Shown one piece after another: positions 16,889-33,308 of a stretch of 64,000 nucleotides of DNA. The notes beneath the pieces were generated by a model. That model had not been told where the DNA came from, searched no databases, and saw nothing but the letters and a program-made list of their open reading frames with translations. The DNA lies in NCBI RefSeq assembly GCF_025998535.1, contig NZ_AP024233.1:1992001-2056000 (forward strand), given 5' to 3'. The stretch comes from Desulfolithobacter dissulfuricans (GTDB lineage: Bacteria > Desulfobacterota > Desulfobulbia > Desulfobulbales > Desulfobulbaceae). Each line of letters opens with the position of its first letter. The stretch's first letter is position 1. Both the position numbers and the translations under genes were made by a program.

Positions 16889-17134
16889 TCACTCCATCTC
16901 CACCTGGGTGAGGACCAGATCCGTTCCCTCGCTCCTGGTTATCTCCAGGATGGCATCCCGGGCCGGTTCCCAGTCAGCCTTGAGGGCATCGAAACCAAAA
17001 ACAAAGGAATCGACAACGATGCCGGCGGAGGAACCGATGGAGACCCGGACCGTGTGGATCCGTTTCGCCCCGTGGGCGGCTGCCAGCTCACCAAGCTGGC
17101 TCATCAGCCCCTGGGCCAGGGAAAACTCATGCAC
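16889..17134 (-). CDS. hypA: Hydrogenase maturation factor HypA, variant lacking the zinc ribbon
   Basis: 81 residues from a GTG start at 17132-17134, whose reading overlaps the end of hynD; the next residues HEFSLAQGL are the HypA N-terminus where the His binds nickel. The N-terminal domain continues normally to AILEIT. The usual zinc ribbon with two CxxC pairs is missing: the sequence jumps to a short tail ending LVLTQVEME, which resembles the family's last strand. Normal HypA is about 113 residues. No frameshift is visible that would recover the cysteines. It should still bind nickel through the N-terminus. A true family variant and a decayed gene are both possible. Confidence 0.8.
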   Translation of the reverse strand: MHEFSLAQGLMSQLGELAAAHGAKRIHTVRVSIGSSAGIVVDSFVFGFDALKADWEPARDAILEITRSEGTDLVLTQVEME

Positions 17135-17632
17135 GGGCGGCCTGCTCCTTTTCTTCCAGCACCACCCCATGGGAGGCGAGGCACTTGATGAGAATATCCA
17201 GAACCTCGTCTATCCTGGGCGCAAGCCTTGGGGACAGGCCAATACCCGTGGACAGATCCTCTGGAACCACAGTGATCATCTCCACCTTTTCCGGCGACCT
17301 GCCCCGCAGCTCGCAGAGGGAGAGAATCTCCAGCAGGCCCACCTGGTGGGGTGACATCCTGGTCTGGATATTGCCGGAGCGGACATCCTGATCGGTAAAA
17401 CGGTGAATGGAGCCCGGCGCACTATCGAGACTGACCGTGTCAATGACATAGAGGACATCCACATCCTCGATAAAGGGGCCAGCATGATGCCGGCCGTGCC
17501 ACCGTCCAGGACCTGGACGTTCTCCGGGATCTGGTAGAGGTGGTTGAACTTTTCGATGAAGTGCACACCAAAGCCTTCGTCCCGGAGAAGCAGGTTGCCT
17601 ATGCCCAGGATACCTATTTTCTGAGTCTGCAT
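17127..17632 (-). pseudogene. hynD: Hydrogenase maturation protease HynD/HyaD, frameshifted
   Basis: The 5' frame from 17632 gives MQTQKIGILGIGNLLLRDEGFG with the nickel-sensing Glu, then DGGTAGIMLAP. The 3' frame gives FIEDVDVLYVIDTVSLDSAPG, where the second metal-binding Asp and, later, SPHQVGLLEIL with the His are found. Adding one base to the GGGG run at 17475-17478 (CCCC on the coding strand) joins the two into a full-length protease ending at 17127. The enzyme clips the C-terminus of the HynA large subunit after nickel insertion. Since hynA still has its cleavable tail, an intact protease is expected, so the break may be a sequence error. Confidence 0.82.
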
Positions 17633-17683
17633 AAAAAAAGAAGAGGTCCGGAGGCCGCGCTAAGGCTGCCCCCGGACGGGAAA

Positions 17684-18325
17684 TCATGATTTGGATTGCC
17701 TGAACTTGTAGCCATTGAATATGGAGGAGATCAGTCCGTCCCTGGCCATCACGTCGTTCCAGACACATAGATAGATATGGATCAGGGCAAAGACCATGAA
17801 GTACCAGGTGAGCAGATAATGGATGAACCGGGCCGTCTGCTGCGGACCGAAAAACAGCCCGATCTGCTGCCAGGTGGCGGATTCGGGATAGAGCATGTAG
17901 AAACCGGTCAGGACCTGGACAGCGGCGGCCAGAAAAGTCAGGCCATAGGCGCTGCCGGCCAGGGCGTTATGCCCGAGCCGCTCTTCATGGCTGTCGCGCA
18001 GATAGCTGTAGATCCCCAGGGTGGCAACAAAATTCTTGATATTGCGGGGGGTAATGGGAAGAAAATCCCAGAGCCGCTCCTGCCGGTTGCCAAAGATCAG
18101 CAGATAGAGCCGGGCCAGCACCGCCCCGGTGAAGACAAAGGCGGCGATGAAATGAATGTAGCGCATGGTGGCCACCGGAAAGGTGGAGCCACCTTCGAGC
18201 ATGGTATTGGTCCATGGAAAATGGATATAAAACCCGGTCACGCTGAGAGCCAAAACAGACAGGGCAAGAGCCCAGTGGTAAAGCCTCAGCAGGATGGACC
18301 AGGTATACTTTCTTTCGTACTGCAT
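17684..18325 (-). CDS. hynC: Ni/Fe-hydrogenase b-type cytochrome subunit
   Basis: 213 residues with four or more hydrophobic helices, starting MQYERKYTWSILLRLYHWALALSV. His in YHWALA, RYIHFIAAF and FIHYLLTWYFMVFALIHIYL are the likely heme b ligands of the HyaC family. It anchors the periplasmic hydrogenase and passes electrons to quinone. It follows hynA after 48 bases and precedes the protease gene. Confidence 0.92.
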   Translation of the reverse strand: MQYERKYTWSILLRLYHWALALSVLALSVTGFYIHFPWTNTMLEGGSTFPVATMRYIHFIAAFVFTGAVLARLYLLIFGNRQERLWDFLPITPRNIKNFVATLGIYSYLRDSHEERLGHNALAGSAYGLTFLAAAVQVLTGFYMLYPESATWQQIGLFFGPQQTARFIHYLLTWYFMVFALIHIYLCVWNDVMARDGLISSIFNGYKFRQSKS

Positions 18326-21224: not shown

Positions 21225-21261
21225 ACCTGTGCAAGTTGTGCACTGCACAAGTCGCACAGGT
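21225..21261. promoter_or_regulatory. 37-bp dyad operator upstream of hynB with four hexamer half-sites
   Basis: The half-sites are CTGTGC (21227-21232), TTGTGC (21236-21241), GCACAA (21245-21250) and GCACAG (21254-21259), each separated by 3 bp. The core TTGTGCA-C-TGCACAA is a perfect inverted repeat and the outer ACCTGTGC/GCACAGGT arms also match. It ends 35 bp before the hynB start codon and lies downstream of the predicted promoter, a position that would suit a repressor. Confidence 0.7.
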
Positions 21262-21400: not shown

Positions 21401-23635
21401 TTACCTATCAACAAGTACCTTCTTTAATGGACAAGTATCTTCTTCCGATACATCATGCGCCAGGTGCCAGATGATCTCGATGGCACTGGCCAGGGTGGGG
21501 AATATATGATCCTCGCCGATTTTCATCAGCAGCCCGGTACGACGCATAGTGTCGATGATATGCTCTTTCAACCCACTGAAATAAACATCATATCCAGCAG
21601 ATCGCAACCGATCTACGAGAAGCGCCAGGGCTGATTCACCGGATGCATCTATGTCATTTATCCCATTACATTTAAAATGGATAATTTTCAGTTCAGGCAT
21701 GCTGGCGACAATTTTCAGCACCTCATCTTCAAGATAACTGATATTTGCAAAAAACAGCGGACCGTCAAAACGGATCACCGCGATATGTTTGCACTGCTTG
21801 AGACGAAAACGTTGAGCATTCCTGAAATGCCCGTCTTCCCACAGGGACAGTTCGGCAATAACCGGTTTCATCTTGCGATAAAAGAATACTCCGATGGTAA
21901 GGGCAACACCGAGCAGGATGCCTTTATCCAGATGAGGAGCAAAAAACAGCGTGGCGACAAAGGTGATGACACTGATAATGCCATCGGATTTCTTTACCAT
22001 GTAGGCATGCTTGATGTCATGGACATTGAGAAGGCCCACCACCGCCATGATGATAATGGCGGCCAGAACCGACTGGGGCAGATGGTACAGCAGCGGAGTA
22101 CAGAAAAGCAGCGCAACAACCACGGCCAGACTGGTAAACACCGAGGACATGCCGGTCTGGGCCCCGGCCTGAAAATTCACTGCAGAGCGAGAGAAGGAGC
22201 CAGAGACCGGATAGCTCCTGCCAAAGGAACCAACCATGTTTGCCAGTCCCTGCCCTATCAACTCCTGATTGGGATCGAGCCTCCCCCCGGTCCGGGCGGC
22301 AATGGCCTTGGCAATGGAGATAGCCTCCATGAACCCGAGGATGGAGATGATAATGGCCGGAACAATCAGCTTCGCAACAACGGCGAGGTCAAATGTCGGC
22401 ATGGCCAGTTCGGGCAATCCCCTGGGTACCATACCGACGACCTCTCCACCACCTACAAGAAGGATATGTTCGGGATCCAACGGTCTATTACCAACCCTGA
22501 TCCGCCAGATATTTTTTTCAGCCCACTTTTCCGGGGGAACCGATTCTTTTAATGCATAATGCAGTGACCCGTCCGACACCTGAACGGAAACCAGCTGCAT
22601 GGAACGCAGCTTCTTTCTGAGAGCCACACCGCGCTCCTTTTCCTCGGCCAGATATTGATCCAGAACACCAGCCATGAGGTGCAGTTCCAGAACCTTTTCC
22701 AGCGGAATATGTTCCGCCGACTTCACCCTGGTCCCTTTCTTCAGCTCCTCCAGATTGACATCCCGGCTCGGATGACAGCTGCTGCAGAGTTTTTTTTCCA
22801 CATCCGGCTCTGCCCTGTCAGCCGCATTCTGCGTGATCATTGTCCGCACCGAGGTGGTCTGGAGAATATTATCCAGGTTGGAATTCATATCCTGGATCAG
22901 GGCAGGGAAGCCGGGCACCTTGATATCATCTATCGTAACATGCCTGTTCTTTTCAAATCCGGTAAGCCAGGAAAGCGTCGTGGTGATAACAACAGCAACG
23001 AGTACATAGGGCAGGCGGGGGTTCCACTTCTTGAGCCCGACCATCACCACGAGCGCCAGCAAACCCATGAAAAAGGTCGGCCAGTGGATAAAGGCAAAGG
23101 CTGCTTCCATTACCCGCCATATGGTCTCAAAATAATGTTCCGCCTTATCAACATGCACGCCGAAAAGCTTGGGAAGCTGGCTGGAAGCGATAATAAGGGC
23201 CGCAGCGTTTGTAAATCCCGAAACAACGGGATGGGAAAGCAGGTTGACAACAATACCGAGCCGGAGGACTCCAAGCAGAAACTGAAACAGTCCCACGATA
23301 AAGGCGAGAAGAACAGCATAGGCGATATAGGCTTCGCTTCCCGCAATGGCCAGGGGCTCCAGACTGGCGGCTGTCATCATGGAAACCACGGCTACAGGAC
23401 CGGTTGCCAGCCGGTGGCTGGAGCCAAAAAGTGCGGCTACAAGGGGAGGGAGAAAGGACGCGTACAGGCCGTAGTAGGCAGGCAATCCTGCAAGTTGAGC
23501 ATAGGCCATGGACTGGGGGATCAGGACTAGAGCGACGGTGACGCCGGCGACAAAATCCATCTTCAGGATGGAGACGCCATAGTCTTTAAACCAGGAAAGA
23601 AAGGGAAAAAAGGTGGTTATGGCTGGTTTGGGCAT
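21401..23635 (-). CDS. SulP-family anion transporter with STAS domain and CXXCH-bearing insert
   Basis: 744 residues. The N-terminal part has the SulP signature (DFVAGVTVALVLIPQSMAYAQLAGLPAYYGLYASF) and multiple membrane helices. The C-terminal 150 residues are a STAS domain (IAVIRFDGPLFFANISYLE, then IHFKCNGINDIDASG). Between helix 7 and the GMVPRGLPELAMP loop there is an insert of roughly 150 residues (about 235-400) that contains CSSCH at 284-288, a heme-c binding motif. This loop should face the periplasm, where heme c can be attached. The substrate could be sulfate, bicarbonate or another anion. GAGGT lies before the start. Confidence 0.88.
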   Translation of the reverse strand: MPKPAITTFFPFLSWFKDYGVSILKMDFVAGVTVALVLIPQSMAYAQLAGLPAYYGLYASFLPPLVAALFGSSHRLATGPVAVVSMMTAASLEPLAIAGSEAYIAYAVLLAFIVGLFQFLLGVLRLGIVVNLLSHPVVSGFTNAAALIIASSQLPKLFGVHVDKAEHYFETIWRVMEAAFAFIHWPTFFMGLLALVVMVGLKKWNPRLPYVLVAVVITTTLSWLTGFEKNRHVTIDDIKVPGFPALIQDMNSNLDNILQTTSVRTMITQNAADRAEPDVEKKLCSSCHPSRDVNLEELKKGTRVKSAEHIPLEKVLELHLMAGVLDQYLAEEKERGVALRKKLRSMQLVSVQVSDGSLHYALKESVPPEKWAEKNIWRIRVGNRPLDPEHILLVGGGEVVGMVPRGLPELAMPTFDLAVVAKLIVPAIIISILGFMEAISIAKAIAARTGGRLDPNQELIGQGLANMVGSFGRSYPVSGSFSRSAVNFQAGAQTGMSSVFTSLAVVVALLFCTPLLYHLPQSVLAAIIIMAVVGLLNVHDIKHAYMVKKSDGIISVITFVATLFFAPHLDKGILLGVALTIGVFFYRKMKPVIAELSLWEDGHFRNAQRFRLKQCKHIAVIRFDGPLFFANISYLEDEVLKIVASMPELKIIHFKCNGINDIDASGESALALLVDRLRSAGYDVYFSGLKEHIIDTMRRTGLLMKIGEDHIFPTLASAIEIIWHLAHDVSEEDTCPLKKVLVDR

Positions 23636-24084: not shown

Positions 24085-24339
24085 TCATTCCTCCCTGGCC
24101 TCAGCCTCATCTCTGATGGTATCAAACCGCTCAGATTGGATGACCTTTTGTCTTTCCAATTCGGCTATTTCATCCATGGAAAGATGTACCAGTCCACAGA
24201 GCGGGCAGGTACCGTCCACCTCGTCACCAACGGCCCTGGCCTTGAGCTCGTCAGCCGTAAGATGACCGACATACCCGCAGGCACCACTGGGATTTTCCGC
24301 CCTGACCTGACGTCTTTTCTTTTTTTCGTTCTCACTCAT
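24085..24339 (-). CDS. Small Cys-containing protein of unknown function
   Basis: About 84 residues from the ATG at 24339 (AGAGGTGG upstream). It is highly charged with a basic start (MSENEKKKRRQVRAE). ACGYVGH and CPLCGLVHLS suggest a small zinc- or iron-binding site, and the end is acidic and helical. I do not recognise the family. Before the IS insertion it lay about 45 bases downstream of mvhA on the same strand, so it was probably the last gene of the hdr/mvh operon. A 16-bp direct repeat (GTCTGTTTTCACACAC) lies just upstream. Confidence 0.65.
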   Translation of the reverse strand: MSENEKKKRRQVRAENPSGACGYVGHLTADELKARAVGDEVDGTCPLCGLVHLSMDEIAELERQKVIQSERFDTIRDEAEAREE

Positions 24340-24406
24340 GACAACCACCTCTGCTTGTCGTCTGTTTTCACACACCGTCTGTTTTCACACACTGGTGAGT
24401 GTATTT

Positions 24407-25902
24407 AGTCGATCTTGAAAAATCCCATTTTCAGACCGTCAAAAGCCTTGTCACCAAGGGCTGACTCCATGAATGGAGTCGACCCAACCTCTTCAACAGA
24501 GACACAAACAAAAAATAAGACAGTTCTTCCCTCAGTTTCCTGAGGAGGATACGGATATTCTGTCCAGCTCCGCAAAGCAGTGCGTTGATTTTATCTCCGA
24601 GTATTCCTTTCAGGTAGTTTCGATCCAGCTTGCCATCAGCCTTCATATGGCCAATGACCGGCTCGATAGCACTTCGTCGCTTGAGCTCCTTTTTCATCTG
24701 GGGAGTCATCCCGCGCTTTCTGCCGGAGATAAACACCTGGGTGGTGTTCACTCCGTGACCGCGGTAGCCACGATCAACATAACATCGCCTGACCACCTTG
24801 CCGGTAAGTTCCTGGACCTGCTCCAGAGCCTTGGCCAAGGTGTGGCCATCGTAGGGGTTGCCATGCTCGGCAAGCATGCCTACAACAAAGTTGTCACGGT
24901 TCGTGACCGCCACGCTGACCTTGACCCCGAATTCATACTTTCTATGGGCCTTGCCTTTGGCAATGCATTCAACCTCCGGGGCATGGAGACTGTAGAGCTT
25001 GTCCTTGTCTTTTCGTTCCTGAGAGAGCAACCGCTCTGCCATGGCCAGTTCCTCTTTGAAAACAGAACGAAGTTCTTCCCGTTGTTCCAGCTTTCTATTG
25101 ATGTCACGGTAAACTCGGCCAAGGTAGGTTTTAAGTCGCTTGATCTCACGCCTGGCTCGTTTGATTTGCCGGGCATGCAGGTAGCGTCCAACCTTGAGCA
25201 GGGCTTTGGGGCCTAATCGGGCATAACTTTGGCGAAGGGGCAGGTCAAATTTCCTGGCAAGCTTGACCAGCCTTTCACGGCTACGATTGTACAATTTGGC
25301 ATCTGTGGGATAGGTGACGGCTTTGCGCTGCACCGTCGTATCCACGGATACTCGTTCCAGGCTGGAATCCTTGATGCAGTTGCTTGCAAGACCTGCCTCT
25401 ATTGTCGCCTTCAAAATGAGCCGAGCACCTTTTTCGCCTATCCGCTTGCGCCAGCGGCTCATGGACGAAGGATCTATGGGCAGATGGTGCTGGAAATAAC
25501 TTTCGCCACAAAAAAACTGCCAGTAGGGATTTTCCACCCAGCGTCTGACCACCTCTTCATCGGAAAGACCAAAGGCATGACCCAGGTAGGTCAAACCTGC
25601 CAGCAATCGAATGGGGATGCCAGGCCTTCCTTTTTTCTCGGAATACAGTGTGCCAAACTCCTTCTCGAAAATTTCCCAGGGGAGCAGTTCCGCCAGCCGG
25701 TACAGCTCATGAGTTCGGTCGAGAATATTTTCCAGCCTGCTGCGAAAAAGATCTCCCTGGGGGGTTGAATTGCTCAGTCTTGGACGCATGGAAATCACCA
25801 GAAATTGAAGGGTAAAAGTGCAATAACCTGCAATTTATGGTGATATAATTTAGCAAAATTAATTCAAAATTTCAATAAGTTAAGGTTTTTTCAAGGCCGA
25901 CT
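24407..25902 (-). mobile_element. IS5-like insertion sequence inserted in the 3' end of mvhA
   Basis: 1496 bp. Terminal inverted repeats match at the two ends: AGTCGATCTTGAAAAATCC on the left and AGTCGGCCTTGAAAAAACC on the reversed right end. A 4-bp direct repeat ATTT flanks both sides (24403-24406 and 25903-25906). One transposase gene fills it. The right inverted repeat supplies the last codons and the stop of mvhA. Confidence 0.8.
24431..25798 (-). CDS. IS5-family transposase
   Basis: 455 residues. The N-terminal helical region (IPIRLLAGLTYLGHAFGLSDE) is followed by the first catalytic Asp in RVSVDTTVQRKAVTYPTDAKL, the second in CYVDRGYRGHGV and the Glu in RRSAIEPVIGHMK, the DDE triad of IS5/IS1182-like enzymes. 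The gene appears intact, so the element may be active. The exact IS subgroup cannot be decided without a database. Confidence 0.88.
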   Translation of the reverse strand: MISMRPRLSNSTPQGDLFRSRLENILDRTHELYRLAELLPWEIFEKEFGTLYSEKKGRPGIPIRLLAGLTYLGHAFGLSDEEVVRRWVENPYWQFFCGESYFQHHLPIDPSSMSRWRKRIGEKGARLILKATIEAGLASNCIKDSSLERVSVDTTVQRKAVTYPTDAKLYNRSRERLVKLARKFDLPLRQSYARLGPKALLKVGRYLHARQIKRARREIKRLKTYLGRVYRDINRKLEQREELRSVFKEELAMAERLLSQERKDKDKLYSLHAPEVECIAKGKAHRKYEFGVKVSVAVTNRDNFVVGMLAEHGNPYDGHTLAKALEQVQELTGKVVRRCYVDRGYRGHGVNTTQVFISGRKRGMTPQMKKELKRRSAIEPVIGHMKADGKLDRNYLKGILGDKINALLCGAGQNIRILLRKLREELSYFLFVSLLKRLGRLHSWSQPLVTRLLTV

Positions 25903-27333
25903 ATTTAAGGTATTGCCGGAGCTGTCGACCAGAGTTACGGTCAGAGGCATACCGCCATCCAGGCGGTGCGTGGCGCACGACATTCACGGGTCATATGCGC
26001 GAACCGCCATTTCGACCTTGTTAAGCAACCCCTCGTCATAAACACCGCCCCTGATAAGACTGGTGGCAGCCTCTTTGACACTCATATTCATGGGGGCGAT
26101 GTTATGGGTGGTACCGACGATCATATTGGCCTTGACAATGCAACCATCTTCATCGGTGGTATAATCGTGGATAAGAGTCCCGCGGGGAGCTTCCACAGCC
26201 CCAACACCCCGGCCGGCCTTTGGTTCTGCCTTGGCCCTGACATTTTTATCCGTAATATCATCCTGCTCAAGCAGTTCAATGGTGCGCTCACAGGCATACA
26301 CAAGCTCGATCAAACGGGCCCAGTGATAAAGCAGGGTACCCTGGGCAGGCCGACCAAATTTTTCGCGAAACTCCTCCAGCTCCTCCTGGGCACGCGGAGT
26401 GGACAACCGCTCCGCCACATTAATACGGGCAAGAGTGTTGGCACGATAGACGCCTTTTGGCGCAGCCAGATCCATGGAAAATCCCTCATCCCAGCATTTG
26501 GCATAGGGCATTTTTCCGTATGTCCAGGACTCCACGTGTTCCGCCAGATACTGATCGTACTGATCAACGGGAAAGTCGGTAATGGTGCCATCGGCCTTCA
26601 TAAGCCGCAGATGCCCGTCATATAACCGTAATGCCCCGGAATCATCGACCGTACCCAGAAAGCCGGTGGTGATGGTACCAAGACTGGCAATGACATCTTC
26701 GTATTTGGGGAAGACACTGTTTTTGGCAAAATCCATGGCAAACAAGGCGAAATCAAGCAGTGTCCTGGTGTCTTCCAGGAGACCCTGACGTTCTTCCTCG
26801 GTCATGGGTTTGGCAAAACCACCGACCACGCCGGCGATGGGATGAATTGCCTTGCCGGCAAACCGTTCCAGCATCATCTGGCCCAGCTGCCGCATCTTGA
26901 CGACCTGGGTCGCCAGCTCAGGCGCTTCCTTCACAATCCCGACGACGTTCCGAACCGAGTAATCACTGTCCGGCCCGAGAACAAAATCGGGCGCAGCCAG
27001 GAAAAAGAAATGAAGTATCTTGTCATTGATGTGGGCCATAATCTGGCACAGTTCGCGCAGTTTATGACCGGTGGGCGTCGGGGTAACCCCAAAGCACCCA
27101 TCAACCGCTTTGTTGGAGGCGAGGTGGTGCATCCAGGGACAGATACCGCAGATCCGGTTCACAATGCGTGGAACCTCCTCTGCCGGACGCCCTTCAATGA
27201 ACTTTTCAAAGCCCCGCAGGGACATAATGTGGAGAAAGGCGTCGCTCACATTACCGTCATCGTCAAGATGAATGGCAATCCGGGCATGCCCTTCAATCCT
27301 GGTTACCGGTTGTATATTTATCACGTTACCCAT
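25891..27333 (-). CDS. mvhA: [NiFeSe] F420-nonreducing hydrogenase large subunit MvhA/VhuA-like, selenoprotein
   Basis: 480 codons if the in-frame TGA at 25984-25986 is read as selenocysteine (residue 450). It starts MGNVINIQPVTRIEGHARI, with the N-terminal NiFe ligands RICGICPWMHH near residue 60. The C-terminal ligand motif becomes D-P-Sec-MSC-ATH, where the first Cys of DPCxxCxxH is replaced. Stopping at the TGA would remove both C-terminal ligands, so readthrough is required for function. After the His come 24 residues, the tail normally removed by a protease. The last three residues and stop come from the inserted IS element. MvhA is the H2-oxidising subunit of the Mvh-Hdr complex in the cytoplasm. 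Confidence 0.92.
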
Positions 27334-27347
27334 TGATCACCCCTCCG

Positions 27348-28277
27348 TCATTTTCCGGATTTTTTATTTATCGGCCTGAGCAGACCATGTGCCCCGGAAA
27401 AGCGTAATAAAGAGCGCCGGTCAACCACGGACTTAAAATCAATACCATTGCTGGCCAGTGCGTTCATCATATCAAGCATCTGATTTCCATCCCGCCGTAC
27501 CGGTCCGAAACAGCCCCTGCATGGGACCCGGGCACTGATACAGGATGGGGCACCGCGTCTGGCACAACCAGCAGCGGTAACCGGACCCATGCACATGAAC
27601 CCCTGCTCGAGCAGACAGCGCATTTCATCAATTGGTTTTTCCGGGTCATAATCAGCATTCTGAACAAAGCGCCTGACCTTGCTCACGTCGCCCTTGCCTT
27701 CCCGTCTGGTGGGACAGGTATCACAAACGGACTTACCGGGAATGACGGGATCGCGTCCTTCAATAAGCGCTGTCACAACCTCGGCTATCAGTTGCGGGTT
27801 TGGAGGACACCCGGGCAGGATGAGGTCAACTTTTACCTTTTCATCTACCGCATAAACCCGGTCAAGAGGCTTGGGGACAACGTCTGTCGGCACCTGGCAC
27901 TTGTCTGTTGTCGGGGTTGCATAAGAGTTCTTGATTCCCTCTTCCATGCCCCAGGAATTTATAAGAGCGGGAAGCCCGCCATGGGTGGCACAGGTGCCAA
28001 GAGCAATCAGGATCTTGCACTGCTTACGCATGGCTTCAAGCACTTCCAGGTGCTCTTCATTGGCCACACCACCCGAGACAATGCCCACATCAGCTTCCGG
28101 AATCTCCAGCTCTTCCCCCTCCCCCATCTGACCATAGTATTTATGGTCCATCAAAACGGGTATATGGACAAAATCGATTTGTCCAAGCAACTCAACCAGG
28201 GGTTCACCTATATTGAGTATGGCAATTTCACAACCGGAACAGGAATGCAACCATTCCTCTGCTACGCGTACGCCCAT
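27348..28277 (-). CDS. mvhG: F420-nonreducing hydrogenase small subunit MvhG
   Basis: 309 residues from the ATG at 28277, which has AAGGAGG nine bases upstream; a longer frame from 28331 overlaps mvhD and is less likely. Cluster ligands include HSCSGCEIAI near residue 12, GTCATHGG near 89, and GCPPNP, followed by Cys-rich runs CDTCPTRR and CMGPVTAAGCARRGAPSC and PCRGCFGP for two more clusters. It passes electrons from MvhA to MvhD. The final Cys positions are normal. It sits between mvhD (10-base gap) and mvhA (14-base gap). Confidence 0.93.
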   Translation of the reverse strand: MGVRVAEEWLHSCSGCEIAILNIGEPLVELLGQIDFVHIPVLMDHKYYGQMGEGEELEIPEADVGIVSGGVANEEHLEVLEAMRKQCKILIALGTCATHGGLPALINSWGMEEGIKNSYATPTTDKCQVPTDVVPKPLDRVYAVDEKVKVDLILPGCPPNPQLIAEVVTALIEGRDPVIPGKSVCDTCPTRREGKGDVSKVRRFVQNADYDPEKPIDEMRCLLEQGFMCMGPVTAAGCARRGAPSCISARVPCRGCFGPVRRDGNQMLDMMNALASNGIDFKSVVDRRSLLRFSGAHGLLRPINKKSGK

Positions 28278-28287
28278 AGTTTCCTCC

Positions 28288-28713
28288 TTATGCCGCCTGC
28301 GAGGCTTCAGAATTTGCGGCAACAGGGCCAAGTTTCTTTATCCGGGCCGTCATCTTGGTAACAGCCTCAACAAACTTGTCCGGCTCGGCAGAGGAACACC
28401 AGGCCAACATCAGGCGATCCTTTTCATAGCCGAAATCTTCCATCAGCTCGTGTACCATGTCCACCCGGGACAATGCCTTGACATTACCATCCAGGTAATG
28501 ACATTCTCCAAGGTGTCAGCCAAGGACCATGACCCCGTCGGCCCCCTTGACAAAGGAGTTCAGGATCAACTCAGGATGCACCATACCTGAACACATGACT
28601 CGGATTATCCGGACATTGGGCGGATACTGCATTCTGGCGGTGCCAGCCAGATCTGCGGCGGCATACGAGCACCAGTTACAGCAAAAGGCAATTATCTTCG
28701 GTTCAAAGCTCAT
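28288..28713 (-). CDS. mvhD: F420-nonreducing hydrogenase iron-sulfur subunit MvhD, selenoprotein
   Basis: 141 codons with an in-frame TGA at 28516-28518 (residue 66). The text before it is [15 protein letters not shown] and [12 protein letters not shown]; at the TGA the reading is VLG[14 protein letters not shown], where MvhD proteins usually have GCHxGDCHY. The second half ends in [10 protein letters not shown]. All parts of the MvhD family are present and continuous, so TGA is read as selenocysteine. MvhD bridges the hydrogenase and HdrA and carries a [2Fe-2S] cluster. It lies between hdrA and mvhG. Confidence 0.92.
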
Positions 28714-28756: not shown

Positions 28757-31700
28757 TCACACCGCAAGAGCCGCCTCAAGCTGACTTTCGAGCTGCTTGA
28801 GGGAGAATCCGGCCACAGACACGCCACGTTTGGGACAGGTCCCCTGACACAGGCCGCATCCCTTGCAATGGGCCTTGTTGATGGCAACACGTTTATGGAT
28901 CTGCCCCTCGTCATCCGTCTCTTCCACAAGGGTAATGGCGTGATAAGGACAGACATCAACGCACAGGGCGCAGCCGTCACAGTTATCCGGATCAACTTCA
29001 GCCTTGATACCATCAAGGGTTATTTCATTCCGTGACAGTAAGGTGGCCGCCCTTGCAGAAGCAGCCAGGGCCTGGGCGATGGATTCTTCAACGGGTTTGG
29101 GATAATGGGCCATACCGGCGACAAAGAGCCCGTCCGTTGCAAAATCGACAGGCCGCAGTTTGGCATGCGATTCCTGGAAGAAGCCATGGTTATCCAGCGG
29201 CACCTTGTACAGCTGGGCCAGTTTTTTCGCCCCTGCGGAAGGAATAATAGCTGCTGCCAGGATGACCATATCCGCATTGATCAGCAGCGGTCTGTGAAGT
29301 ACATGGTCCCACACTTCCACTACAAGACCATTTTTCCCCCTGGTAACCTTTGGCTTGCCATGCAGTTCGTAATTGATAAAAACAACGCCCAGCTCCCTGG
29401 CCTTCTTGTACAGTGTCTCACGCTGACCATACGTCCGCATGTCACGGTACAGAATATAAACCTGGCGGGAGGAATTTTCTTTTTTCAGCTCTATGGCTGC
29501 CTGCACCGAGTGGGTACAACAGACCTTTGAGCAGTAGTTACGATCCGACTCGCGCGACCCAACACACTGGATAAAGACAAAGGAATTACTGTTCCTGACA
29601 TGAATGTCGTTGATCTCACACAGCTTGTCAAACTCAAGAGCAGAGACCACCTCCTTGTGCTCACGGTACCCGTACTCGTCAGGCATCAACCTGCTCGCAC
29701 CGGTGGTGATGATGGCAACGCCATGGGAAATGGTTTCTTTTAAGCCTATTTTGTTTTTTATGGTGGACCGGAAATTACCGACATACCCTTCGGCCGCAAC
29801 CACTTCCGTTTCCATGCGCACCGTGATCAGCTCATGGGAAGTAACCTTGTCCACCAGCCTGTGTAACCTGAGCGGAATATGCTCGCCCGACCAGGTATTA
29901 TGCAGATGCCGTCCATTGCCACCAAGCACTGCGCTCCTTTCAATGAGGTCAACAGGAAAACCCTGATTGGCAAGATTGAGCGCCGCAGCCATACCGGCAA
30001 TGCCACCGCCGATAACCAGAGCCCGCTGGGTGATGGGAACCGCCACATTCTCAAGTGGCCCCTGCCAGGTAACCTTGGCCACAGCCATTCTGGTCAGGTC
30101 TTTGGCCTTTTGTGTTGCCGCAGTCTTGTCCCCGGTGTGGACCCAGGAATTCTGGTTGCGGATATTTGCCATCTCAAAGAGATACTCATTGAGACCGGCA
30201 GCCCTGATGGTTTCATGAAACAGCGGTTCGTGGGTCCGGGGCGTACAGGCCGCCACCACGATTCTGTTGAGCTTGTTCTCCTGAATAACCTTGACCATCA
30301 GGTCCTGGGTGTCCTGGGAGCAGGTGAAGAGGTTGCGTTCCACGTGGACAACTCCCGGCAGAGTGGCAGCATACTCGGCCAGATCTTCCACATCCACGTA
30401 TCCGGCAATATTGGATCCACAGTGACAGACAAAAACACCGATGCGCAGTTCTTCACCAAGAATGTCACGTTCAGGCGGAAAAGTTTTTTCCCGGGCCAGC
30501 TCAAACCTGGCCGGTGCCAGAGTATCGGCTGCTGCAGCGGCGGCTGCAGAACCCTCCATGACGGACTGGGGAATATCCTTGGGACCGGCAAAGGCGCCGC
30601 AGGTGAAGATACCGGCCTTGGACGTGGAAACCGGGGCAAAGTCGGAAACAGCGGCAAAATTATGATGCGTTAGTCTGACACCGGTCTTATCCGCCAGCTC
30701 CAGGACATGTTTCGGTGTTTCCAGGCCAACGGAAAGAACCACCAGGTCAAAGTACTCTTCGATCTGCTGTCCCTGTTCATTGACATAATGGAGACGTAGA
30801 TCGCCTTCCCTGCCCTGGGGCTCCACGCCATTGACCCGACACCGGACGAAACGGACCCCGGCCTCGTTTTTTGCCCGCTGATAGTATTCGTCAAACTCCT
30901 TGCCGTGGGTCCGCATATCCATATAAAAGATGGATGTCTGCAGCCCCGGCACATGGTCCTTGGCGATAACAGCCTCTTTGATGGCGTACATGCAGCAGAC
31001 AGAGGAACAGTAGCCATTACCGCAGAGATTTTCATCCCTGCTGCCAACGCACTGCAGAAAGGCCATCTTGCGCACCGGCTTGCCGTCCGACGGGCGAACC
31101 AGGTGCCCCTCGGTGGGACCGGAGGCGGAAAGATACCGCTCCAGCTGCATGGAGGTGATCACGTTGGGATACTGCCCGTATCCAAACACCTCGGTTCCCG
31201 ATGGATCGAAACACTCAAAGCCAGGTGCCAGGATAACGGAACCCACATCAATCTCGTGGATTTTTTCCGTATCATCGAAATTAATGGCACCGGCAGGGCA
31301 TACTTTGGCGCAAGCCCCACACCTTCCCGGCTTGTTGAGCCATATACAGGCTTCCGGATCAATCTGATATTTCAGGGGTACCGCCTGCGCATATTTTACA
31401 TAAATCGCCTTGCGTTTTCCGGTGCCCGCATTGTACTCGTCATCAACTTTTTTCGGACATTTGCTCGCGCACTCCCCGCAGGCAATACACTTGTCCATGT
31501 CCACATAGCGGGGATGCTCCTTGAGCGTTACCTTGAAATTTCCTGCCCTGCCGGTAATCTCCGTTACCTCGCAGAGCGTCATCAACTCTATATTTAAGTG
31601 CCGACCGCACTCAACCAACTTAGGCGCGATAATTCACATCGAGCAGTCGTTGGTGGGGAAAGTCTTGTCCAGCTGAGCCATGGCTCCGCCAATGGCGCCT

Positions 31701-31816
31701 GAACGCTCGACCAGGTAGACAAAATACCCTGCATCCGCAAGGTCAAGGGCAGACTGCATTCCTGTAACGCCGCCACCAACCACCATTACCGAACCAATTG
31801 TCTTGTTTTTCAGCAT
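28757..31816 (-). CDS. hdrA: Heterodisulfide reductase subunit A (long form), selenoprotein
   Basis: 1019 codons from the ATG at 31816, which has GAGGAGG upstream. An N-terminal FAD fold ([18 protein letters not shown]) is followed by FPTNDCSM-Sec, with the TGA at 31634-31636 (residue 61) where the family has Cys in its cluster motif. Two ferredoxin motifs ([12 protein letters not shown] and CGACAKVCP) lie near residues 105-160, the HdrA core [11 protein letters not shown] near 400, a second FAD fold ([17 protein letters not shown]) near 540, and two more ferredoxin motifs near the C-terminus ([24 protein letters not shown]). HdrA holds the bifurcating flavin. The double-FAD form is long for HdrA. 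Confidence 0.93.
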
Positions 31817-31829
31817 TTCAGCTGCCTCC

Positions 31830-33308
31830 TCATTCGTTTTCATCCATAGTCTGCGTTGCAGGCTCCGGCAGGACAAGAGAATCTGCTACCAGCTCCCACA
31901 GATACTTGACCTCGATCCCGAGCTCGTACTCCCTGTTCAGCGATTTCATCAGCTGATCACGACAGTTGTGGCAAGGAGCAATAACCAGTTCGGCTCCGGT
32001 CTCCTGAATCTGCCGGGCCTTGATCCGGCCATAATAGACGCGCTCCGCGGCAAAGGGCATTGCCCAGGCACCACCGCCTGCGCCGCAACAGTAGTTCCCG
32101 TTCCCCTTAGGTGCCATATCGACAAAATCAGGACAGCAGGCGCGGGTTATGATCCGTCCTTCTTCGAAATAACCGTGACCAAAGGTTTTGAGCGATTTGC
32201 GACCGTAATTGCACGGATCGTGGTAGGTTGTAAGCTTTGAATGTATTGCAGGATCAAGGGTGATACGTCCGCTGTTGATATATTCAAGCAACAGATCAAA
32301 AACAGAGTAGATCTGAAACTCCTCAAGAGCTTCAGGGTACCATTTCTGCAACCCGGACCGGGTCGCGAAGTAGGCATGGCCTCACTCGGGAAGGAGTAGC
32401 GCGGAACATTTAAGTCGTCGCATGTTATCGACAATGCGACCGACAATGGTTTTCATCGCTTCATCGTCCCCGGAGAACAGGCCCCAGTTGACGCCTTCCC
32501 AGTTATCGGAGGCAATGGTCCAGGATTCGCCGGCGGCATAGAAAATTTTCCACCACCACTTCATGTCGTCCGGCTCGGCAAAAGGCTCCTTTGAGTTGAC
32601 CGTAACCAGGAGCCTCGCGCCATACTCGTCCACTGGTGTCTTGAAGCCGGGACACGCTTCCTCAGCCAGTTCCTCACCCAGATCTTCGAGAAGGAAGAGA
32701 AAGTCCTCCTTGGGAATACCCAGATTATTACCGCGCTCAAGACAGGTGACCACGCCCTTGTGGATCGGCCCGGGGACCTTGTCCCGCTCGCGCCGGGAAC
32801 GAATGCGCCGCATAAGCTGCACGATCTGCACATCCATGGGACAGGCTTCCTCGCACTTGGCACACATGGTACATTTCCAGGGCCAGTCAGAGGAGACCAA
32901 TTCATCTTCCAGGCCAAGAAACGCCATGCGGACAATCTTACGCGGATCCAGCCCATCCACACCGGAAATAGGGCAGGCCGAGGCACATGTACCGCAGGTC
33001 AGACAGACGTCAGCCCAGGAAGGATCTTCATAGAGTGTTTTCTGGTTATTATCTAAAGCGAGAGGAGGAGGCGTCGCCTTGGCCGTCATTTTCTGCAAAA
33101 CCGCCGGATCATAATCCTGGTTAGGGTTAAAGCGCGGCTTGCGGCCGAATTTTTCACAGAGCGCCTGGTAGTCCTCCCACTTCATTATATACCGGCGCCC
33201 CGGACCGAGTTCTGCCTTAAGCGATCCGTTTGTTATCCAGTTACGTATGGTATTTCGGTGAACACCGAACTCCTCAGCCAGTTCACTCACCTTGAATTCA
33301 TAGGTCAT
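31830..33308 (-). CDS. hdrBC: HTH-HdrC-HdrB fusion protein, selenoprotein
   Basis: 492 codons with an in-frame TGA at 32382-32384 (residue 309). Residues 1-60 are a MerR/excisionase-type helix-turn-helix ([19 protein letters not shown]). Residues about 90-170 are HdrC-like with [12 protein letters not shown] and [12 protein letters not shown]. At the TGA the text is LLLPE[11 protein letters not shown], matching the ECGHA box of the HdrD/DsrK CCG family. The second CCG block follows ([25 protein letters not shown]). The HdrB part reduces disulfides. The ATG overlaps the protease stop as ATGA. The DNA-binding-like start fused to an electron-transfer protein is uncommon and may be for docking rather than DNA binding. 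Confidence 0.9.

Follow-up and report, generated by a model that had tools for sequence, protein, structure and literature searches.

The window considered here, a stretch of 64,000 nucleotides from Desulfolithobacter dissulfuricans (positions 1,992,001 to 2,056,000 of NZ_AP024233.1), encodes on its minus strand a 744-residue SulP/SLC26-type anion transporter with a predicted periplasmic domain that bears the heme c attachment motif CXXCH (21401..23635, -; assigned from the ORF and from Pfam and NCBIfam profiles). SulP proteins with this motif form one clade, and their genes are usually found among those of NiFe hydrogenases. Judged from the sequences, heme c is very probably attached covalently to the motif. 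The explanation that we tentatively prefer is that the protein is an H+/sulfate symporter carrying one covalent periplasmic heme c, whose H2-derived redox state would gate uptake.

The protein is a member of the SulP/SLC26 family, since the Sulfate_transp domain, the STAS domain and the 14-TM fold are all present. In fact, Sulfate_transp (PF00916) is matched with 353 bits (cut-off 23.2, E 1.8e-105) in two stretches with the insert between them, and STAS (PF01740) with 61.1 bits (cut-off 22.6, E 9.7e-17) in a C-terminal domain, residues 612-718 (21482..21802, -), that is cytoplasmic by homology. The full-length AlphaFold2 model has the 7+7 arrangement of the SLC26 fold (pTM 0.73), matches the SLC26 structures 7lhv, 5da0 and 6ki1 in Foldseek with E-values down to 1e-28, and resembles SLC26Dg and BicA (5iof, 6ki1) in its TM domains with TM-scores by target of 0.82-0.86. 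Two cysteines outside the insert hardly vary among SulP proteins, whether CXXCH is present or not: Cys615 in the STAS domain and Cys735 in the CPL tail at the C-terminus.

From a functional perspective, two residues of the transporter core are of particular relevance. Glu437 in TM8 (22325..22327, -) aligns with Glu347 of the plant transporter AtSULTR4;1, which is required for H+ coupling of sulfate transport, and Arg483 in TM10 (22187..22189, -) aligns with Arg393, which stabilises the bound sulfate (PMC8298490). Glu437 is invariant and Arg483 nearly so in an alignment of 47 SulP sequences, and because both are kept, the window SulP is probably a working H+/sulfate symporter. The substrate of the CXXCH proteins is thus likely to be sulfate, and the profile TIGR00815 scores 445.9 on the window protein, above its cut-off of 380.45. 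The same heme-bearing transporter might instead carry another anion, either bicarbonate, in support of H2-dependent autotrophy, or thiosulfate or sulfite, a reading that differs from the preferred one in the substrate only. The SulP family does include BicA and DauA, the substrate cannot be read from the sequence with certainty, and Ca. Desulfobulbus rimicarensis, which carries a CXXCH SulP gene (L038), has been reported to be autotrophic and to disproportionate sulfur (PMC7117923). This alternative is nevertheless somewhat unlikely, given that the BicA model NF050096 reaches only 145 bits against a cut-off of 880, that the DauA model likewise scores far under its cut-off, and that the window protein resembles the clade C and Ci proteins assigned to sulfate (PMC5840216).

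The feature that sets this protein apart lies between TM7 and TM8, where about 170 extra residues separate the two transporter halves (TM7 ends at residue 225 and TM8 starts at residue 417 in the model). The insert proper, residues 226-398 (22442..22960, -), consists, according to the alignment and the models, of a strand, a long helix, the CXXCH tip, a second long helix and strands; a phmmer comparison with the solved SLC26 proteins leaves residues 204-398 without counterpart in AtSULTR4;1. The initial annotation had described some 150 extra residues between helices 7 and 8 with CSSCH at residues 284-288, and the ORF, the profiles and the model bear it out. It had also placed this loop in the periplasm. 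In SLC26 structures, the TM helices are arranged as 7+7 and the STAS domain is cytosolic (PMC8298490), so that seven TM helices before the insert would put it outside; by this homology, the loop with its CXXCH is predicted to be periplasmic, in agreement with the earlier assignment. An additional TM helix inside the insert finds no support, since the insert is hydrophilic along its whole length and has no hydrophobic stretch (best 19-residue KD mean 0.77).

A model of the insert by itself, for which the shortest member was used, shows a confident domain in which a strand and a 35-residue helix lead to a flexible, CXXCH-bearing tip and are followed by a second helix and strands, the second helix being kinked at the sequence LHxxAG with the conserved histidine near its start. 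The CXXCH-bearing tip has low confidence (35-58) in both the full-length and the insert-only models, and the alignment and model delimit within it a sub-insert, residues 271-310 (22706..22825, -), that is largely absent from SulP proteins without CXXCH. Searches of the insert against solved structures returned no match (Foldseek best E 1.2; PDB sequence search best E 0.49), and those against Pfam gave weak NapC/NirT cytochrome matches in 8 of 22 members (best E 0.0018) and nothing else. No cytochrome c fold or family known from Pfam or the PDB was thus found for the insert.

The motif itself, CSSCH in the window protein (residues 284-288; 22772..22786, -), was recognised by alignment as a site of putative heme attachment. 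CXXCH is present in 25 distinct SulP proteins (22 aligned and three more) from four families of the phylum, f1, f12, f91 and f78, which were found by a survey of relatives together with wider searches. C284, C287 and H288 do not vary in the 22 distinct aligned homologues, while the residues between them do (CSSCH, CSTCH, CGSCH, CTGCH, CGRCH, CSRCH, CLRCH and CIDCH). Pairwise identity averages 100% in the motif, 40% at the two X residues, 21% in the flanks of the tip and 70% in the TM core; an origin of the motif by chance is ruled out, the two cysteines and the histidine being invariant between flanks of such low identity. The three members outside the alignment (L169-L171) have CLRCH and LHxxAG too, and the conservation in orthologues for which the initial annotation had called is thus found throughout. 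The corresponding columns of 43 SulP proteins without the motif contain the CXXCH residues in no case.

The only other invariant histidine of the insert is His319 of LHxxAG (22679..22681, -). It is present in 22/22 CXXCH SulP proteins and in none of the 43 without the motif, most of which have E, Q or K in that column. His319 is therefore a candidate distal ligand, which with His288 would give a bis-His heme c. In about 15 of the 43 proteins without CXXCH, the position directly following the His319 column is occupied by a histidine, and a histidine near this position may predate the heme.

As for distribution, a CXXCH orthologue was found in five others among 57 relatives, and SulP proteins with a shorter insert in about 20. 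The CXXCH loci with named records all belong to Thermodesulfobacteriota, namely Desulfobulbus, Desulfobulbaceae, Desulfocapsa and one 'Deltaproteobacteria bacterium'; the named records of f1 and f12 are of the first three kinds, and f91 and f78 fall in the same phylum. The insert without CXXCH is widespread, being present in 43 sister SulP proteins that include a second SulP of the same 3.6 Mb genome, with an insert of about 120 residues. It follows that the entire 150-residue loop is not a heme domain: of the extra loop singled out by the initial annotation, the CXXCH tip and His319 are indeed special, while most of the remainder is not specific to heme. In a maximum-likelihood tree of the transporter only, with the insert columns removed, the CXXCH SulP proteins occupy one side of a branch with a support of 100/100 and are thus one clade; repeated gain or scattered occurrence of the motif is ruled out, the tree having one change. 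No loss of the motif in descendants was seen in a set that, gathered by similarity to CXXCH proteins, may under-sample losses.

The genomic neighbourhood brings a second line of evidence. On the minus strand of the window the order is HdrA, MvhG, MvhA, a transposase, a 96-residue protein, SulP, the hydrogenase small and large subunits, a b-type cytochrome, HycI, HypA and HypB. Upstream of the SulP gene, neighbourhood profiles identify an MvhG-like hydrogenase small subunit (27348..28331, -) and an MvhA/VhuA-like cytoplasmic hydrogenase large subunit (25984..27333, -), preceded by an HdrA-like subunit (28757..31618, -) whose frame runs on upstream past an in-frame stop codon. On the other side are a NiFe hydrogenase small subunit with a Tat-type N-terminus (TIGR00391; 20102..21190, -), a NiFe hydrogenase large subunit (PF00374; 18374..20074, -) whose best NCBIfam match, the hydrogenase 2 large subunit, is below its cut-off, a hydrogenase b-type cytochrome subunit (TIGR02125; 17684..18325, -), the maturation protease HycI (neighbourhood profiles; 17127..17768, -) and the nickel incorporation protein HypB (TIGR00073; 16128..16871, -). 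The stretch separating SulP from hynS contains a match resembling a terminator and another resembling a promoter, and it is therefore not certain that the two genes are co-transcribed in the window.

Some further features of this region were recorded. The HdrA frame (30719-32383, -) extends upstream of 31618 through its in-frame stop, as it might at a selenocysteine codon. The transposase gene (24431-25798, -) separates MvhA from the 96-residue protein and SulP, and relatives have no transposase there. The 96-residue protein (24085-24375, -) has no match in Pfam or NCBIfam, and a similar small ORF is found by MvhA and SulP in L085 and L038. A near-perfect palindrome at 21225-21261, which precedes the gene of the hydrogenase small subunit by 35 bp, has 18-nt arms that are 89% complementary and 1 nt apart; its core, TTGTGCAGTGCACAA, occurs once in the whole genome, and it is possibly the site of a regulator.

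The initial annotation had proposed a link with hydrogenases from the neighbouring genes, and the comparison of neighbourhoods supports this more strongly than the window alone could. NiFe-hydrogenase or hyp genes are found near 16 of 22 CXXCH SulP genes and near none of the 41 without CXXCH (Fisher p 2e-10, a value that ignores shared ancestry); counted by genus, the CXXCH form occurs in eight genera, and the link holds in six of them. The six CXXCH genes with no hydrogenase nearby lie in some cases on short contigs. Family f91 has the order hynS-hynL-cytb-SulP-hypFCDE-hycI-hypAB, with only some tens of bp between SulP and hypF, and in other Desulfobulbaceae HdrA-MvhGA is followed by SulP and then by hypAB. 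In f91, the hydrogenase small subunit is also immediately preceded by a conserved, exported-looking protein of about 347 residues with no family match (L079:3904-4944; L080:3431-4474). The usual position of the CXXCH SulP gene among hydrogenase genes suggests a coupling of anion uptake to electrons from hydrogen.

A heme c with a structural task only, which would staple the tip of the hairpin and stabilise the dimer or a lid but take no part in redox processes, would agree with the similar domain of the sister SulP proteins, whose lack of CXXCH implies that the main role of the domain may be structural. Such a task is unlikely, however, as those sister proteins manage without heme and the heme form is precisely the one associated with hydrogenases. 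Another reading makes the heme an electron relay or docking site, with SulP as a membrane anchor that exchanges electrons with hydrogenase or periplasmic cytochromes on one side and with a further partner on the other, and with transport uncontrolled. The f91 gene, embedded between the hydrogenase cytochrome b and the hyp genes, speaks for such a relay, and so do the CXXCH genes without hydrogenase neighbours that adjoin, in some cases, a cytochrome P460 (L087, L040) or a pentaheme cytochrome (L170, L171). We regard it as decidedly unlikely, since a single heme sits on a transporter in which the substrate and proton residues are conserved, and since multiheme cytochrome genes are not enriched near CXXCH SulP genes (2/24 vs 2/41 near those without CXXCH). 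The P460 genes are divergent from SulP (L087:3933-4553, -; L040:4150-4848, -).

Periplasmic CXXCH motifs are the substrate of the Ccm system. The genome of D. dissulfuricans has five matches to PF01578 and encodes proteins of the CcmF and CcmC types, next to which lie CcmE- and CcmAB-like ORFs; a CcmE-like protein (L074:2388-2870, -) ends in CPSKYE, and its heme-binding residue is seemingly a cysteine (CxxxY) and not a histidine. The suggestion that CXXCH and His319 form a thiol/disulfide switch, or a Cys/His site for Zn, Fe or, in hydrogenase maturation, Ni, can appeal to the adjoining nickel genes hypA and hypB and to an insert that matches no known cytochrome fold or family, but is very unlikely in view of a motif histidine as invariant as its cysteines, of the ccm genes in the genome and of the weak NapC/NirT matches in eight members.

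Under the preferred explanation of a heme-gated H+/sulfate symporter, the TM7-TM8 domain would hold one heme c at the end of its hairpin of two helices, with bis-His ligation by His288 and His319 probable. The H2-uptake hydrogenase encoded alongside would feed electrons into a periplasmic pool with which the heme would equilibrate, and the redox state of the heme would be relayed along the hairpin to the junction of TM7 (gate) and TM8 (core), where transport would be raised or lowered. Sulfate would then enter the cell when H2 is at hand to meet the cost of reducing it, and its entry would cease, or sulfate would be let out, while the cell disproportionates sulfur. Redox control of transport by the heme is a hypothesis that we advance with caution, and it is with similar reserve that we suggest that SLC26/SulP transporters of this kind make up a class whose anion transport is switched on or off through a covalent heme c in the periplasm, the redox state of which is set by hydrogenase. 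Such gating would suit cells that import sulfate in the presence of H2 and produce it when disproportionating sulfur. In this respect, dsrA is present in the D. dissulfuricans genome and in all 14 other genomes checked, and Ca. Desulfobulbus rimicarensis is reported to have group 1 and Mvh hydrogenases and possibly also to reduce sulfate with H2 (PMC7117923). If the proposal is correct, the supply of electron donor would be physically and directly coupled to the entry of sulfate, with which sulfate reduction begins, and the family that includes prestin and pendrin would have a natural redox-gated member, in the form of a transporter that doubles as a cytochrome. The paralogue without CXXCH in the same genome offers a built-in control.

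Among the papers searched, none was found that reports a covalent heme on an SLC26/SulP transporter. The group Ci SulP proteins of sulfate reducers, of the same family, average about 710 residues through an insertion relative to model SulP proteins, and in most of them the PxYGLY motif starts with A, as it does in the window SulP (AYYGLY) (Marietou et al., 2018; PMC5840216). The sister SulP proteins having the insert without CXXCH probably correspond to this group. The group Ci insert was described as adding a TM helix, whereas that of the window protein is hydrophilic, and the same paper makes no mention of heme or cytochrome (PMC5840216); neither the CXXCH tip nor His319 occurs in those relatives compared here that lack the motif. 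AtSULTR4;1, a plant H+/sulfate symporter (7lhv; PMC8298490), shares with the window SulP the SLC26 fold, the STAS domain and the equivalents of Glu347 and Arg393 and, unlike it, has neither the TM7-TM8 domain nor a heme motif. SLC26Dg and BicA have the 14-TM fold in common with it, but lack the insert and have other substrates. A periplasmic CXXCH on a membrane protein, as predicted for the window SulP, is also found in the membrane-anchored c-type cytochromes of the NapC/NirT type, which are not homologous to it overall. These cytochromes have one anchor helix each and serve solely to carry electrons.
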